Notes under the pieces: generated by a model
Told to the model about the DNA's origin: nothing
What the model saw: the letters and a program-made list of their open reading frames with translations, nothing else
The model's database searches: none
Position numbers and translations under genes: made by a program
In this document: positions 22,921-30,215 of the stretch, piece after piece
How the letters are laid out: the number at the start of each line of letters is the position of its first letter
How positions within the stretch are numbered: position 1 is the stretch's first letter
Source of the DNA: Methylococcales bacterium
GTDB taxonomy: Bacteria > Pseudomonadota > Gammaproteobacteria > Methylococcales > Methylomonadaceae
Assembly: GCA_023145835.1 (NCBI GenBank)
Contig: JAGLDH010000037.1
Location: 1-36,553 of the forward strand
Direction: 5' to 3'
Length of the DNA stretch: 36,553 bases

Positions 22921-22991
22921 TCAAACAAAACGCCCCATAATAATACGGAGCGTTATAGTTTTGAATTCACTAGCAGTTAAAAAATTACTGC

Positions 22992-25044: not shown

Positions 25045-25252
25045 CTACACTGCTCCAATTTGGATTGAAAAAACTACACTATTTTAATAAGTAGTTCAAA
25101 ACAGGCTATTAAGCCAAACTCTGCCATTCTATCGTAAATAAATATTTTCTGATAACTTATATTAGCATTTAATACTATATATTTTACGACTAGCCTAAAA
25201 AAACACCTTTGTATTTAAATTTAAAGATAAAACAACGTATATAAGCAATCAC

Positions 25253-26521
25253 TTAACCATCAAGTTCTTCTACTTCAACAGTTTTTATTAAACCTAAATG
25301 TTTTTTATCTATTTCTATCAATAAATCCCATCCACCCATATCATTGACCTTTTCTTCAATAATTTTGGCATAGTTAAAAAGATTTGCTCGTACCCCTCCC
25401 TGATTAGGTAATAAATAGCATTTTCTTTTTACTTTTGTACTAGAAAATAATTCCATTAACGCTTTTAACAACAATTCTACTCCAGCACCTGTTACTGCTG
25501 ACAACCAGACTCTGACAGGTTTCCCAGTATTATCATAATCTATATGTGGCTCAACATTCTCCAACAAATCAATCTTATTAAACACTTGTAATTGTTGTAT
25601 TTTATGGGCATTAATATCTTCTAATACCTGGTTTACCTGAAAAATAGTATCATCTCTATCTTCTGCATTAGCATCAATGATATGCAACAATAGTTCAGCC
25701 TCACTCGCTTCTTGCAATGTAGACTTAAATGCAGCAACTAATTCATGCGGCAAATGACGAATAAAACCGACTGTATCTGCAAGCACTACCTTTGTCCCAT
25801 TTGCTAGTGAACAATTTCTTAACGTGGGATCTAGTGTGGCAAAAAGTTGATTAGCCACATAAATGTCTGCTCCAGTTAGGGTATTGAATAAAGTTGATTT
25901 ACCCGCATTGGTATACCCAACTAAAGAAACAGATGGAATCTCTGATTTTTTTCGTTTACTTCTGCCTTGGCTACGTTGTTTTGCTACTTTTTCTAAACGC
26001 CGCTGAATTAGTTTTATGCGATTACTTAATAATCGTCTATCTGTTTCAAGCTGAGTTTCACCTGGCCCACGCATACCTATCCCACCTTTTTGACGTTCAA
26101 GGTGTGTCCATCCTCTAATTAGCCGGGTAGATAAGTGCTTTAATTGCGCCAACTCAACCTGTAGTTTGCCTTCAAAAGTTTGTGCTCTTAATGCAAAAAT
26201 ATCTAAAATAAGGCCATTTCTATCAACTACACGAACTTCTAAAGCTTGCTCTAGATTTCTTTCTTGGCTTGGTGTTAACGGATGATTAACCAAAACAATA
26301 TCCGCTTCATGTATGGCTATTTCAGACTTTATTTCTTCTAACTTACCCTTTCCTACAAAATATTTTGGATCCGGACGCTGTCGACTTCCAGTAACGACAT
26401 GCACGGGCTCTGCTCCTGCAGATTTTGCGAGTTCTTTTAATTCGTAGAGATCTTCCTGACCTACTTGTAATGTAAGATGAACAAGTATTGCTCGCTCACC
26501 TGATTCCGGACGGTCAAACAA
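25253..26521 (-). CDS. hflX: Ribosome-associated GTPase HflX
   Basis: 422 residues. The N-terminal HflX domain (PDPKYFVGKGKLEEI, VVDRNGLILDIFALRAQTFEGKLQVELAQL) and the helical linker with GGIGMRGPGETQLETDRR precede the GTPase domain: GYTNAGKST (G1), DPTLR (G2), DTVGFI (G3), NKID (G4). It splits stalled 70S ribosomes after heat or antibiotic stress. It follows hfq by 115 bp in the conserved hfq-hflX order. Confidence 0.97.
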   Translation of the reverse strand: MFDRPESGERAILVHLTLQVGQEDLYELKELAKSAGAEPVHVVTGSRQRPDPKYFVGKGKLEEIKSEIAIHEADIVLVNHPLTPSQERNLEQALEVRVVDRNGLILDIFALRAQTFEGKLQVELAQLKHLSTRLIRGWTHLERQKGGIGMRGPGETQLETDRRLLSNRIKLIQRRLEKVAKQRSQGRSKRKKSEIPSVSLVGYTNAGKSTLFNTLTGADIYVANQLFATLDPTLRNCSLANGTKVVLADTVGFIRHLPHELVAAFKSTLQEASEAELLLHIIDANAEDRDDTIFQVNQVLEDINAHKIQQLQVFNKIDLLENVEPHIDYDNTGKPVRVWLSAVTGAGVELLLKALMELFSSTKVKRKCYLLPNQGGVRANLFNYAKIIEEKVNDMGGWDLLIEIDKKHLGLIKTVEVEELDG

Positions 26522-26636
26522 ATAAAACTCCAGTTTGAATAATAGGATTCAGTTTTCTGCTTAAAAATTACTTAATAACTGACACAACAACAAATTTCAA
26601 AAAAACACTCTATTGTTAAATTAAATAGTAACTATC

Positions 26637-26876
26637 TTATTCTTCAATAGGCTCATTATCTCTAGGCAATTTGACTGGCTTTCCAGGAACTATAGTCGAA
26701 ATTGCATGTTTATATACCATCTGACTTACTGTATTTTTCAACATAATTACATATTGATCAAATGAATCCACTCTTCCCTGTAATTTTATACCATTGACTA
26801 AGAAAATAGATACTGGAGTATGTTCTTTTCTCAACGTATTTAGAAAATTATCCTGCAAATTTTGGCTTTTTGACAT
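26637..26876 (-). CDS. hfq: RNA chaperone Hfq
   Basis: 79 residues. Sm1 ([25 protein letters not shown]) and Sm2 (YKHAIS at 55-60) are intact; proximal-face Gln8, Asp9, Lys56 and His57 are present and Phe42 is Tyr. The rim patch reads R16-K17-E18-H19 rather than RRER, so it is less basic. The tail is short and ends acidic (DNEPIEE), like the acidic tip that autoinhibits Hfq. It matches small RNAs to mRNAs. Its leader carries a tandem duplication, listed separately. Unlike the usual order, a 576-bp gap with gene debris separates it from miaA. Confidence 0.98.
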
Positions 26877-26886
26877 CCTATTTCCC

Positions 26887-26930
26887 CTATTATTATTCCC
26901 GAATTACACTATTATTATTCCCGAATTACA
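26887..26930 (-). promoter_or_regulatory. Tandem 22-bp duplication in the hfq leader with AAU repeats
   Basis: Two perfect, adjacent copies of a 22-bp unit lie at 26887-26908 and 26909-26930, followed by four more matching bases. Read on the hfq strand, each unit contains CGGGAATAATAATAG; the second ends in the AGGGGA that serves as ribosome binding site 6 nt before the ATG region. (AAU)3AG fits the A-R-N repeat bound by the distal face of Hfq, so two candidate Hfq sites sit on the translation start of its own mRNA. The duplication is seen; autoregulation is inferred, by analogy with E. coli hfq. Confidence 0.6.
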
Positions 26931-27134
26931 CTATCCTTAAGAAAGATAAATACCATCTTATCTAACCAGATATATAGAGACAATACTTTAAAGCTCAAGT
27001 TCCCGACAAAAATAAAAATTTGTTCTTTTTACAACAGTACTTGAATACATCGTAATTTTCCATAAGTTTACGACAATATTAAAAATTTACTTGGCATAAA
27101 TGCTACTCTTACTACGATGCTTTGAATTAATTAT

Positions 27135-27295
27135 ATGGCTAAAGTCTGTTATCGCATTTTTAATATTGCCTGTCACGTATTAACCCATGTAAATTCTTTT
27201 TTATCACACTTTAAGGAGCCTTTGACCAATCAAGCTTGGTAGGAACACTGATTTACATTGGAAGCTTTCTTGTTTTAAAAAAACAATATGAATGA
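27135..27295 (+). pseudogene. Remnant of an EamA-type (DMT) permease C-terminus
   Basis: The frame HFKEPLTNQAW is followed, after a missing base at about 27240, by GTLIYIGSFLVLKKQYE and a stop. Together these read like the last helix of EamA-family transporters (E-P-L-T...W-L-G-x-L-I-x-x-G). Upstream of this only short unlinked peptides are found, so the left limit given is a guess. It is the only coding-like trace in the 576-bp hfq-miaA gap; the rest of the gap (26931-27134 and 27296-27452) holds nothing I can name. Confidence 0.35.
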
Positions 27296-27452
27296 CATCT
27301 ACATTCAAGGCATTAAACGTCTAATCTATAATCTTGAAGCAACTGTAACTCACCTGAAACTGCATTGTATTTTTGTGCATAACTTAAACTCCAAAGTTAC
27401 GTAATCTTTAAGAATGAAGTTTCCTTGTAAAATTGCGGAAGCTTGTAGATAA

Positions 27453-28391
27453 TCAGGTGTTTTTAATACTTTGTAACACTTTATTAGTCAAATCTGGCTC
27501 AAAAGATATAAATTTCAAGGCATCTTTCTCTCTTCGTAACCAAGTAAATTGTCTTTTTGCTAATTGCCTTGTCGCTACAATTCCTTTTTCTATCATTGTA
27601 TCCAGATCATATTTTCCTTGTAAATAACCCCATGTCTGACGATACCCTACAGCACGCATAGCGGGCAAATCCTCTGTTAAATCTCCTCGTTGATACAAAG
27701 ACCTTACTTCTTCTATTAACCCAGAATCAACCATCGCCCTGAACCTTTGTGCAATTTTCTCATGCAATTGTTTTCTGTCATCTGGCGCAACAATAAGCTT
27801 TATTTTTTTAAATGGAATCTGATTTTCTTCTGCTTCTCGAAAAAACTGAGTCATTGGTTTACCACTAAGCTCATACACCTCTAATGCACGTTGAATTCTT
27901 TGTGGATCATTAGGATGAATCCTCTTCGCAGATTCAGGATCTATTTTTTTTAGCTTTAAATGCATAGCTTCTTTACCAAGTGTAGCTAATTCTTCATCTA
28001 ATTTTTTTCTAACTTCATGATTTGCTTCTGGTAAAGAAGCCAAGCCATTGAAAAGTGAATTAAAATATAACATAGTACCACCTGTCAATATAGGTACTTT
28101 TCCATGTTTTGAAATATCTTCCATTATTTTTAAAGCAGATTGTCTAAAACTGCCTGTAGAATAGGATTCGATAGGGTCAATAATATCTATTAGATGATGC
28201 CGAATCCCTTGGCGCTCTTCCAAAGATGGCTTAGCAGTGCCAATATCCATGCCTTTATAGACTAAAGCAGAATCAACACTGATAATTTCTGTATCCAATG
28301 CTTGAGCCAACCGTACAGATAGTTCAGTTTTTCCTGAAGCTGTTGGACCCATAAGAAAAATTGCAGATGGCAACGTATCTTGATTCATCAC
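27453..28391 (-). CDS. miaA: tRNA dimethylallyltransferase MiaA
   Basis: 312 residues. P-loop GPTASGKTELS (15-25), DSALVYKGMDIGTAKPS (an SAL variant of the usual DSRQVY), and the tRNA-binding region RAVGYRQTWGYLQGKYDLDTMIEKGIVATRQLAKRQFTWLR. It adds the isopentenyl group to A37 of tRNAs reading UNN codons, which includes the tRNA-Leu(CAA) in this window. It abuts mutL (adjacent positions, no gap), so it is translated from the same mRNA. Confidence 0.97.
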   Translation of the reverse strand: MMNQDTLPSAIFLMGPTASGKTELSVRLAQALDTEIISVDSALVYKGMDIGTAKPSLEERQGIRHHLIDIIDPIESYSTGSFRQSALKIMEDISKHGKVPILTGGTMLYFNSLFNGLASLPEANHEVRKKLDEELATLGKEAMHLKLKKIDPESAKRIHPNDPQRIQRALEVYELSGKPMTQFFREAEENQIPFKKIKLIVAPDDRKQLHEKIAQRFRAMVDSGLIEEVRSLYQRGDLTEDLPAMRAVGYRQTWGYLQGKYDLDTMIEKGIVATRQLAKRQFTWLRREKDALKFISFEPDLTNKVLQSIKNT

Positions 28392-30215
28392 TTATTGTCC
28401 GCGAAGAAAAAACTTATCTAAATCTGCAGTACTAAATTCAACCCAAGTAGGTCTTCCATGATTACATTGCCCTATTCGTTCCGTTTGTTCCATATCTCTC
28501 AACAACGCATTCATTTCATCAATTGTTAACTTGCGCTTGGCTCTGACAGAACCATGACAAGCCATAGTGGCTAAAATTTCATTCGATTTTTCTAACACAC
28601 GTTGACTCATTCCATGTGTCACAATATCCGCTAAAATATCTTTAATCAAAGTATCCATATTTTCACGCCCTAGCAATGCTGGCGTAGACCTTAGCACTAT
28701 CGTTTCTGGCCCAGATCTATTCAACTCAAATCCTAGTGCTTCAAAAAAGGGATGTTCTTGCTCTGCCAACTCAGCTTCAACACTACTCACTTGAATTTTA
28801 AGAGGCAATAATAATGGTTGGCTTGGAACGTTTCCTTCATAATACTGTTTTTTTAATCGCTCATAATTTACACGCTCATGTGCTGCATGTGCATCAACTA
28901 AAATAATACCTGTTTCTGTTTCCGACAAAATAAAAACACTATGTAAATGAGCGATAGCATAACCTAATGGGTAGGTACCTTCAGTCGCATTCAGAATAGA
29001 TTGGTTGGCATCATCATTAGTGATACTTTCATGTTTAGGATATAAAGATGCATAAGCTTTAATATCTTCTGCTACGTTCATGGATAATGATGATTGTATA
29101 GGAGAGGGAGTCGAACTAAATGATCTGTTTTTTATTGGTAAAGGAGAATCAGGCTCTGTTGGCTGAATAGGTGTAAATTCTTCAATTTTTACGACGCTAT
29201 TTTGCTGGTTTCCTGGCCTAAGATCAGCAAGAGAACGATGTAAAGCCCTATACAAAAAATCGTGAACTAATCGCCCTTCCCTAAACCTCACTTCAAGTTT
29301 TGCTGGATGTGCATTAACATCAACCAAAGCAGGGTCTAACGTCAAATATAAGACAAAAACAGGATGACGACCATGAAATAACACATCTTGATAAGCCTGT
29401 TTGACTGCATGCGTAACTAATCGATCTTTAATTAAGCGTCCATTAACATAAAAGAATTGCATATCCTGCTGACTGCGAGAAAATGTAGGCAATCCAACCC
29501 AGCCTCTCAGTTGTAGACCAGATGCTTCAAAGTCAATTTTGACTGAATTTTCAATAAAAGCAGAGCCACAAATACTCGCTATTCTTTTTTCTTGATCATA
29601 CTCTAACTCAGCTGGCTTTAGGTTAATAATTTCTCGCTGATTATGATTTAAAGTAAACCCTATATCAAAACGACTTAAAGCCATTTTTTTTATCAGGCTC
29701 TCAATATGCGAAAACTCTGTTTTCTCTGTTTTTAAAAATTTACGCCTCGCTGGTGTGTTATAAAACAGATCTCTTACATCAATTGTTGTTCCTGCTGGAT
29801 GAGGGTCAGGTTGTGGATCAAAATCTTTTTCTGACCCATCTGCACTGACTTTCCATGCACAATCTGCATCATTAGTCCGAGAAATTAGAGTCAGCCTTGC
29901 CACAGAACTAATACTTGGCAAAGCTTCCCCACGAAACCCCATACTAGATACATGTTCTAGATCTTGTAAACTTGCTATTTTACTGGTTGCATGTCGTGAT
30001 AAAGCCAAAGGTAAATCATCTTTAAAAATACCACAACCATTGTCACGGATTTTAATAATACGAATCCCACCTTGTTCTACATCAATAGTGATTTGAGTTG
30101 CACCCGCATCAAAACAATTTTCCACTAATTCTTTAACAATTGAAGAAGGCCTTTCGACCACTTCGCCAGCAGCAATTTGATTAACGAGTTGAGTGGGAAG
30201 AGATTGAATTCGCAT
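28392..30215 (-). CDS. mutL: DNA mismatch repair protein MutL
   Basis: 607 residues. The GHKL ATPase has EVVERPSSIVKELVENCFDAG (18-38), DNGCGI (58-63) and GFRGEAL (93-99). A Pro/Ser-rich linker (about 335-400) leads to the dimerisation domain. That domain contains DAHAAHERVNYE (441-452), matching the DQHA(X)2E(X)4E endonuclease metal motif except for Ala in place of Gln, then QPLLLP (466-471), which fits the beta-clamp-binding motif, and CNHGRPT near the C-terminus. It looks like a nicking-type MutL rather than the E. coli non-nuclease type (inference). Confidence 0.97.
   Translation of the reverse strand: MRIQSLPTQLVNQIAAGEVVERPSSIVKELVENCFDAGATQITIDVEQGGIRIIKIRDNGCGIFKDDLPLALSRHATSKIASLQDLEHVSSMGFRGEALPSISSVARLTLISRTNDADCAWKVSADGSEKDFDPQPDPHPAGTTIDVRDLFYNTPARRKFLKTEKTEFSHIESLIKKMALSRFDIGFTLNHNQREIINLKPAELEYDQEKRIASICGSAFIENSVKIDFEASGLQLRGWVGLPTFSRSQQDMQFFYVNGRLIKDRLVTHAVKQAYQDVLFHGRHPVFVLYLTLDPALVDVNAHPAKLEVRFREGRLVHDFLYRALHRSLADLRPGNQQNSVVKIEEFTPIQPTEPDSPLPIKNRSFSSTPSPIQSSLSMNVAEDIKAYASLYPKHESITNDDANQSILNATEGTYPLGYAIAHLHSVFILSETETGIILVDAHAAHERVNYERLKKQYYEGNVPSQPLLLPLKIQVSSVEAELAEQEHPFFEALGFELNRSGPETIVLRSTPALLGRENMDTLIKDILADIVTHGMSQRVLEKSNEILATMACHGSVRAKRKLTIDEMNALLRDMEQTERIGQCNHGRPTWVEFSTADLDKFFLRGQ

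Follow-up and report, generated by a model that had tools for sequence, protein, structure and literature searches.

Why does the leader of hfq in a methanotroph carry the same 22-bp sequence twice, directly in front of the ribosome-binding site? The window analyzed here is a stretch of 36,553 nucleotides, contig C177 of the 3.92-Mb draft genome G000 (245 contigs, 95.6% complete). A sequence-only reading of this locus had described a perfect tandem duplication that doubles an AAU-rich motif, and had linked it to translational autorepression of hfq and to a variable-number tract that tunes Hfq levels. We compared the leader with those of related genomes, with the leaders of other genes and with the described sites at which Hfq acts on its own mRNA. 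The doubling by itself is an ordinary slippage product, and the conserved single element that was copied is the main point of interest.

The hfq gene and its surroundings

The hfq product matches the Pfam family Hfq (PF17209) at an E-value of 2.6e-30 and 104.3 bits, relative to a cut-off of 27, and 35 distinct PDB sequences match it at E <= 1e-10, every one of them named Hfq or host factor. The top-scoring named match, at 90% identity, is from Methylobacter sp. BlB1, and other records of Methylococcaceae or Methylococcales come next; the host is therefore probably an aerobic gammaproteobacterial methanotroph. On the minus strand the genes are presumably arranged mutL, miaA, hfq, hflX, hflK, hflC, as judged from their translations, with the identity of Hfq confirmed by Pfam.

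Residue 25 of this Hfq (window 26802–26804) lies at the aromatic position of the distal face and precedes the peptide LVNGI. It is Phe in 72 of the 73 family proteins and Tyr in the other one; at 75 more distant loci, 19 encode Phe and 56 Tyr. Phe25, like Tyr25 of E. coli, is aromatic, and RNA binding by this face is putative. Apart from Phe in place of Tyr, the protein is an ordinary Hfq.

The gap between miaA and hfq contains a decayed IS1595-type transposase remnant (window 27117–27452). Its pieces are 70–83% identical to an intact copy in the same genome (C85, 10598–11545) and to a stretch of C241, and the Pfam family DDE_Tnp_IS1595 supports the transposase identity. This remnant may have separated hfq from transcription out of miaA.

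The 22-bp tandem duplication

The unit TGTAATTCGGGAATAATAATAG is present twice in identical form (Table 1). Tandem Repeats Finder gives a period of 22, 2.2 copies and a 100% match over 26887–26934 (score 96, top of the 15 rows for the window), which amounts to a 48-bp periodic stretch without a mismatch. Both copies yield GGGAAUAAUAAUAG, and each contains AAUAAUAAUAG followed by U or G, forming four consecutive A-R-N triplets, at −43 and at −21. The perfect duplication and the fit of (AAU)3AG to the A-R-N motif thus stand as first described, as does the contact of the second copy with the ribosome-binding site, since the last triplet of the downstream copy, AGG, enters the Shine-Dalgarno (SD)-like sequence. 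The array does lie close upstream of the hfq start, but at a distance of 10 nt (26877–26886, with the ATG at 26876) and not the 11 nt previously given. We also considered a dispersed repeat, which is ruled out: the unit is confined to these two sites, and no third was found anywhere in the G000 genome at up to 3 mismatches.

Table 1. Features of the hfq gene and leader in the window.
Feature	Position	Strand	Details
hfq coding sequence	26640–26876	minus	79 aa; Phe25 at the distal-face aromatic position
SD-like AGGGG	26884–26888	minus	AAGGAG in many relatives
Downstream 22-bp unit	26887–26908	minus	Holds AAUAAUAAUAGG; four A-R-N triplets, the last running into the SD
Upstream 22-bp unit	26909–26930	minus	Identical to the downstream unit; with the next base holds AAUAAUAAUAGU, four A-R-N triplets
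ATAG	26931–26934	minus	Same as the last 4 bases of the unit; the microhomology expected of replication slippage
U-rich stretch UUUAUCUUUCUU	26939–26950 (−74 to −63)	minus	Upstream of the repeats
Candidate hfq promoter, sigma32-like CTTGAG-N14-CTCTATAT	26972–26999 (−123 to −96)	minus	11 of 14 positions, N counted as a match

A single AAU-rich block is conserved in methanotroph hfq leaders

We examined the hfq leaders of 70 of the 191 family genomes with hfq, namely the 30 best-scoring and 40 chosen across genera. Two of these (L150 and L152) did not match the start pattern and were left out, so that 68 family-genome leaders remain, the window included. The wider set of 73 leaders consists of the window, 8 other species of its genus, 59 further family genomes and 5 named loci, one of which (L015) shares its last 75 nt with L113.

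The motif AAnAAnAA, which we take to be the CA-motif of the Hfq/Crc regulon, is present at the hfq start region, within 35 nt of the start codon (−35 to −1), in 64 of the 68 family-genome leaders. These leaders comprise 63 distinct sequences over their last 60 nt and come from 25 genera. Related genomes are not independent, and we therefore also counted by genus: 24 of the 25 genera have the motif in at least one leader and 23 have it in all leaders read. The four leaders that lack it are two in g8 and two in g27. Its position is also regular, the last match beginning at −19 in 40 of the 64 positive leaders. A stricter start pattern, using the nearest ATG or GTG, reads 56 of the 70 family loci, and 53 of these have AAnAAnAA.

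A single AAU-rich block against the SD is conserved in the hfq leaders of this methanotroph family. Most of the 73 leaders have one such block entering the SD, the commonest form being approximately AAUAAUAAGGAGAAAUCGG-AUG, and a typical family block, AAUAAUAAG, stands directly against the SD. Within the genus, the relatives have GGAAUAAUAAUAA (L005, L006, L009 and L010), GAUAAUAAUAAGG (L012) or AAGAAUAAUAAAGG (L007, L008 and L011). The sequence AATAATAA is found in 52 of the 73 leaders, and a run of at least three A-R-N triplets between −50 and −1 in 72 of them. The downstream unit of the window occupies the position equivalent to this conserved single element. The doubling is absent from 72 of the 73 leaders, the window's own being the only one that has it, and none of the hfq leaders of the 8 other genus genomes contains the 22-bp array. 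Another 17 of the 73 leaders have two separate A-R-N runs of at least three triplets each within 70 nt, mostly by way of the SD region. Two clusters are thus not unique to the window, though the repeat is.

Each unit also contains an ATTC-GG-GAAT dyad of the kind that could form a transcription-factor operator. We rejected this as the main reading because the leaders of the genus relatives lack the dyad half of the unit but keep the AAU half. No known structured RNA was found in the hfq leader by Rfam (window 26000–28500, E up to 1); the sole match in that region is a sub-threshold snoRNA inside miaA, which we take as chance.

The AAU form of the block is uncommon before other genes

For background we used SD-preceded open reading frames picked by a simple SD rule, rather than curated genes, in G000 (n = 199) and in its complete relative G065 (n = 177). 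AAnAAnAA occurs in 21/199 of these start regions in G000, with hfq itself counted, and in 15/177 in G065. The longer AATAATAA occurs in 2/199, one of which is hfq itself, and in 2/177. Runs of three A-R-N triplets between −50 and −1 are not rare in this background (65/199 in G000 and 44/177 in G065). The AAU form, and not the A-R-N run as such, is the distinctive part of the hfq block in this comparison, in which hfq may be more highly expressed than the average background reading frame and the controls hold no separate highly expressed class.

Orthologous leaders of two other genes, taken from the same family, served as further controls. None of 30 hflK leaders has AAnAAnAA. For hisZ, 1 of 30 leaders has it when the nearest ATG is taken as the start, and 2 of 30 do when starts farther away are used; this is an imperfect control in which the starts are uncertain, GGAG and AGGA words are absent with the first start choice and one leader (L268) is cut by a contig end. 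Of 75 more distant hfq loci, placed outside the family by titles of which some name only a class, and read from the nearest ATG or GTG, 18 have AAnAAnAA and 1 has AATAATAA. The regular AAU block is therefore a feature of the family and not of hfq in general.

These control regions have features of their own. Many of the 30 hflK leaders (window 25045–25100; L216–L245) have a CCAAT-like word before TGGAGC, and all 30 contain GGAG or AGGA. In many of 30 genomes, the region upstream of hisZ (window 22921–22991; L246–L275) holds a GC-rich inverted repeat, AACGCTCCG...CGGGGCGTTTTGTTTGA, near or overlapping the hisZ start, which looks like a terminator.

Doubled AATAATAATA pairs are found in 13 of 201 family genomes, G000 among them. 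The Hfq peptide VNGIKLQG is encoded at none of 8 loci with doubled pairs (L301–L308; 1.7–3.0 kb each). In G001, G014, G081 and G098 the doubled pairs lie on contigs other than that of hfq, as does the pair on C183 of G000. In G040, hflK is on C19 and the pairs are on C22, so hfq is probably elsewhere.

The block as a putative Hfq operator

Autoregulation of hfq has been worked out in detail in E. coli (PMC6348989). There, Hfq represses its own translation mainly via the distal face, for which the mutant Y25D was studied. A site B at −20 to +4 holds (ARN)3, and a site A lies at an upstream U-stretch (−55 to −50), the second site in vitro. Mutation of (ARN)3 reduced Hfq output (PMC6348989). The methanotroph leader resembles E. 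coli in the gene concerned, in the position of the block relative to the SD, in having at least three A-R-N triplets and in a U-rich stretch farther upstream. It differs in that its block is built regularly from AAU and reaches from just upstream into the SD, whereas site B covers −20 to +4; the window moreover has two blocks, 22 nt apart, as putative Hfq sites.

A second comparison is offered by the Hfq/Crc targets of Pseudomonas, where several Hfq hexamers can be accommodated on a leader that has multiple ARN clusters (PMC6422490, PMC9890229). Those of amiE, estA and rbsB likewise have A-rich ARN clusters of the AAnAAnAA type at their translation starts. In Pseudomonas the targets are genes other than hfq, on which Crc makes the repressive complex stronger, whereas here hfq itself bears the site.

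Because the gene and the triplet rule are the same as in E. coli, and the position nearly so, we favor autorepression for the single block. We propose that the distal face of the Hfq hexamer would bind the A-R-N triplets of the AAU block against the hfq SD. Whenever there is a surplus of free Hfq, bound Hfq would then cover the ribosome-binding site and reduce translation of hfq, as in E. coli. The putative autorepression put forward in the sequence-only reading thus gains support by comparison, from the conservation in the family, the rarity of the block before other genes and the likeness to the E. coli site. That the conserved AAU block is an Hfq operator for autorepression, doubled here by slippage with a second copy of neutral or small effect, is a reading we hold to be somewhat probable.

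The principal rival is that the AAU block acts as a plain translation-initiation enhancer, either an unstructured A/U-rich standby site or an S1-binding site, with Hfq binding incidental and the doubling neutral. An A-rich sequence adjoining the SD can itself raise translation, and conservation alone is therefore no proof of repression. A high need for hfq translation would keep such a block, which abuts the SD in most leaders, and the leader of the window is weakly structured, with 190 of 200 shuffled sequences folding at least as well (z = +1.53). In E. coli, the triplet mutation itself lowered Hfq output (PMC6348989), and this makes an enhancer role a serious rival. Against it, the AAU block is uncommon at the other sampled start regions of these genomes, and the A-R-N periodicity is found at an Hfq gene, with distal-face autorepression documented in E. 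coli (PMC6348989). On balance we regard the enhancer as rather unlikely, while giving it real weight.

In titles and abstract openings of the open-access literature on hfq repeats, methanotroph Hfq and Methylobacter sRNAs, we found no account of this hfq leader. The leader block is best read as a putative Hfq autoregulatory site of a kind already known, which methanotrophs conserve and which carries a lineage-specific duplication here. With a family-wide A-R-N block at the hfq start, the generality of distal-face autorepression could readily be examined by comparison.

Origin of the duplication

Replication slippage makes perfect tandem duplications with short junction microhomology in bacterial leaders. 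ATAG stands before the first unit and also ends the unit, which implies that ATAG words 22 bp apart would have flanked the ancestral single copy. We infer that the duplication most likely arose by ordinary replication slippage between these two words, in which the element and 11 upstream bases would have been copied in tandem in G000. The array resembles other slippage products in its perfect copies, its short junction microhomology and its restriction to one lineage; it differs in that a conserved, probably regulatory block has been copied rather than a neutral spacer. The recent origin suggested by the identity of the copies is weakly constrained, as 22 identical sites would bound the divergence only loosely.

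We next asked how common such arrays are. A 549-kb sample of G000, which includes 107.8 kb that is noncoding by a simple ORF mask, contains two perfect tandem duplications of period 15–100, the one at hfq and a 16-bp one. In 400 kb of G065 there are four, three of them within coding sequence. The hfq duplication is a real event and more than chance, yet it belongs to a class that occurs about once per 275 kb in G000, and such duplications are expected about 14 times genome-wide by simple scaling. An assembly artefact, in which the real chromosome would have one unit, is very improbable. The genome is a draft in 245 contigs, but an ordinary short read is longer than the 48-bp array, and the nearer end of the contig is 9.6 kb away. 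With one other perfect array of period 15–100 in the sampled 549 kb, the assembly is not full of such arrays.

Possible consequences of the second copy

The SD-adjoining copy would keep the ancestral job, and by default we take the second copy to be a slippage product of neutral or small effect. Folding predictions bear on what it could do. Positions −30 to −9 have a predicted mean unpaired probability of 0.45 with two units, the 6th lowest of 68 leaders (family median 0.63), and of 0.72 when computed with one unit. Two copies are thus predicted to lower, not raise, accessibility, which speaks against a simple gain in affinity.

The same predictions raise the idea that doubling makes a hairpin, in which the AAU tracts would be partly hidden and translation damped without Hfq. 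Since AUUCGGGAAU is close to self-complementary, the two units would pair; the minimum-free-energy fold does join them to each other, and the fall from 0.72 to 0.45 on going from one unit to two is in keeping with this. The fold is weaker than that of most shuffles, however (190/200, as above), and the leaders of the genus relatives lack the upstream half of the unit. We consider the hairpin improbable.

A shade more doubtful again is a variable-number tract, in which the number of 22-bp units would differ between cells or strains and set the Hfq level. The copies are perfectly identical, and the hfq leaders of two other species of the genus, L007 and L011, contain heptad tandem arrays. Among the leaders read, though, which come from a set with one genome per species, a single genome has the 22-bp unit in two copies, and heptad arrays are common elsewhere in G001 and in G065. 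Period-7 arrays number 16 rows in 91 kb of G001, two of which are the hfq array, and 14 rows in 400 kb of G065. There are none in 549 kb of G000, and in the 100 kb sampled of G002 the hfq heptad array is the only row listed. As heptad arrays are common elsewhere, they are not special to hfq, and the idea of a propensity for tandem arrays shared by hfq leaders, which we had also entertained, is weakened by those in G001 and G065. The hfq leaders L007 and L011 look alike, and it is possible that G001 and G002 inherited their hfq heptad array from a common ancestor. The claim that the doubling is meaningful in itself, as a tract that tunes Hfq, is not supported: it is absent from 72 of 73 leaders, it bears the signature of slippage, and predicted accessibility falls.

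Returning to the block as an Hfq operator, the second copy would most likely be neutral or of small effect. If it were active, it would provide a four-triplet landing site 22 nt upstream and could raise local Hfq occupancy. Its nearest precedent would then be the leaders of Pseudomonas Hfq/Crc targets, with several hexamers assembled on multiple ARN clusters (PMC6422490, PMC9890229). A stronger version, in which methanotrophs of the family check Hfq with a dedicated AAU-repeat operator joined to the ribosome-binding site of hfq, and in which two-site, cooperative Hfq binding with steeper autorepression has evolved in this lineage, seems to us unlikely. Either a pair of Hfq hexamers would bind, or a single hexamer would occupy both clusters. 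Were it true, a global post-transcriptional regulator would have acquired a new set-point through one slippage step. The natural contrast between one unit and two offers a simple way to ask whether operator number sets the Hfq level.

Upstream leader features

We scored the region upstream of hfq against what we take to be the sigma32 consensus. Better matches than the candidate promoter of the window, with CTTGAA-N14/15-CCCAATAT or CCTCATAT (13 of 14 positions), are found at a like place in L005, L006, L009, L010 and L012, and looser matches upstream of hfq in several other genera of the family. This suggests heat-shock control of hfq in methanotrophs. The candidate promoter would give an hfq leader of about 85–90 nt with both units. 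The U-rich stretch upstream of the repeats is possibly the counterpart of site A of the E. coli hfq leader (−55 to −50), by likeness only. A 13-codon upstream open reading frame (MVFIFLKDSVIRE; window 26915–26956, minus strand) ends at the UAAUAAUAG of the upstream unit.
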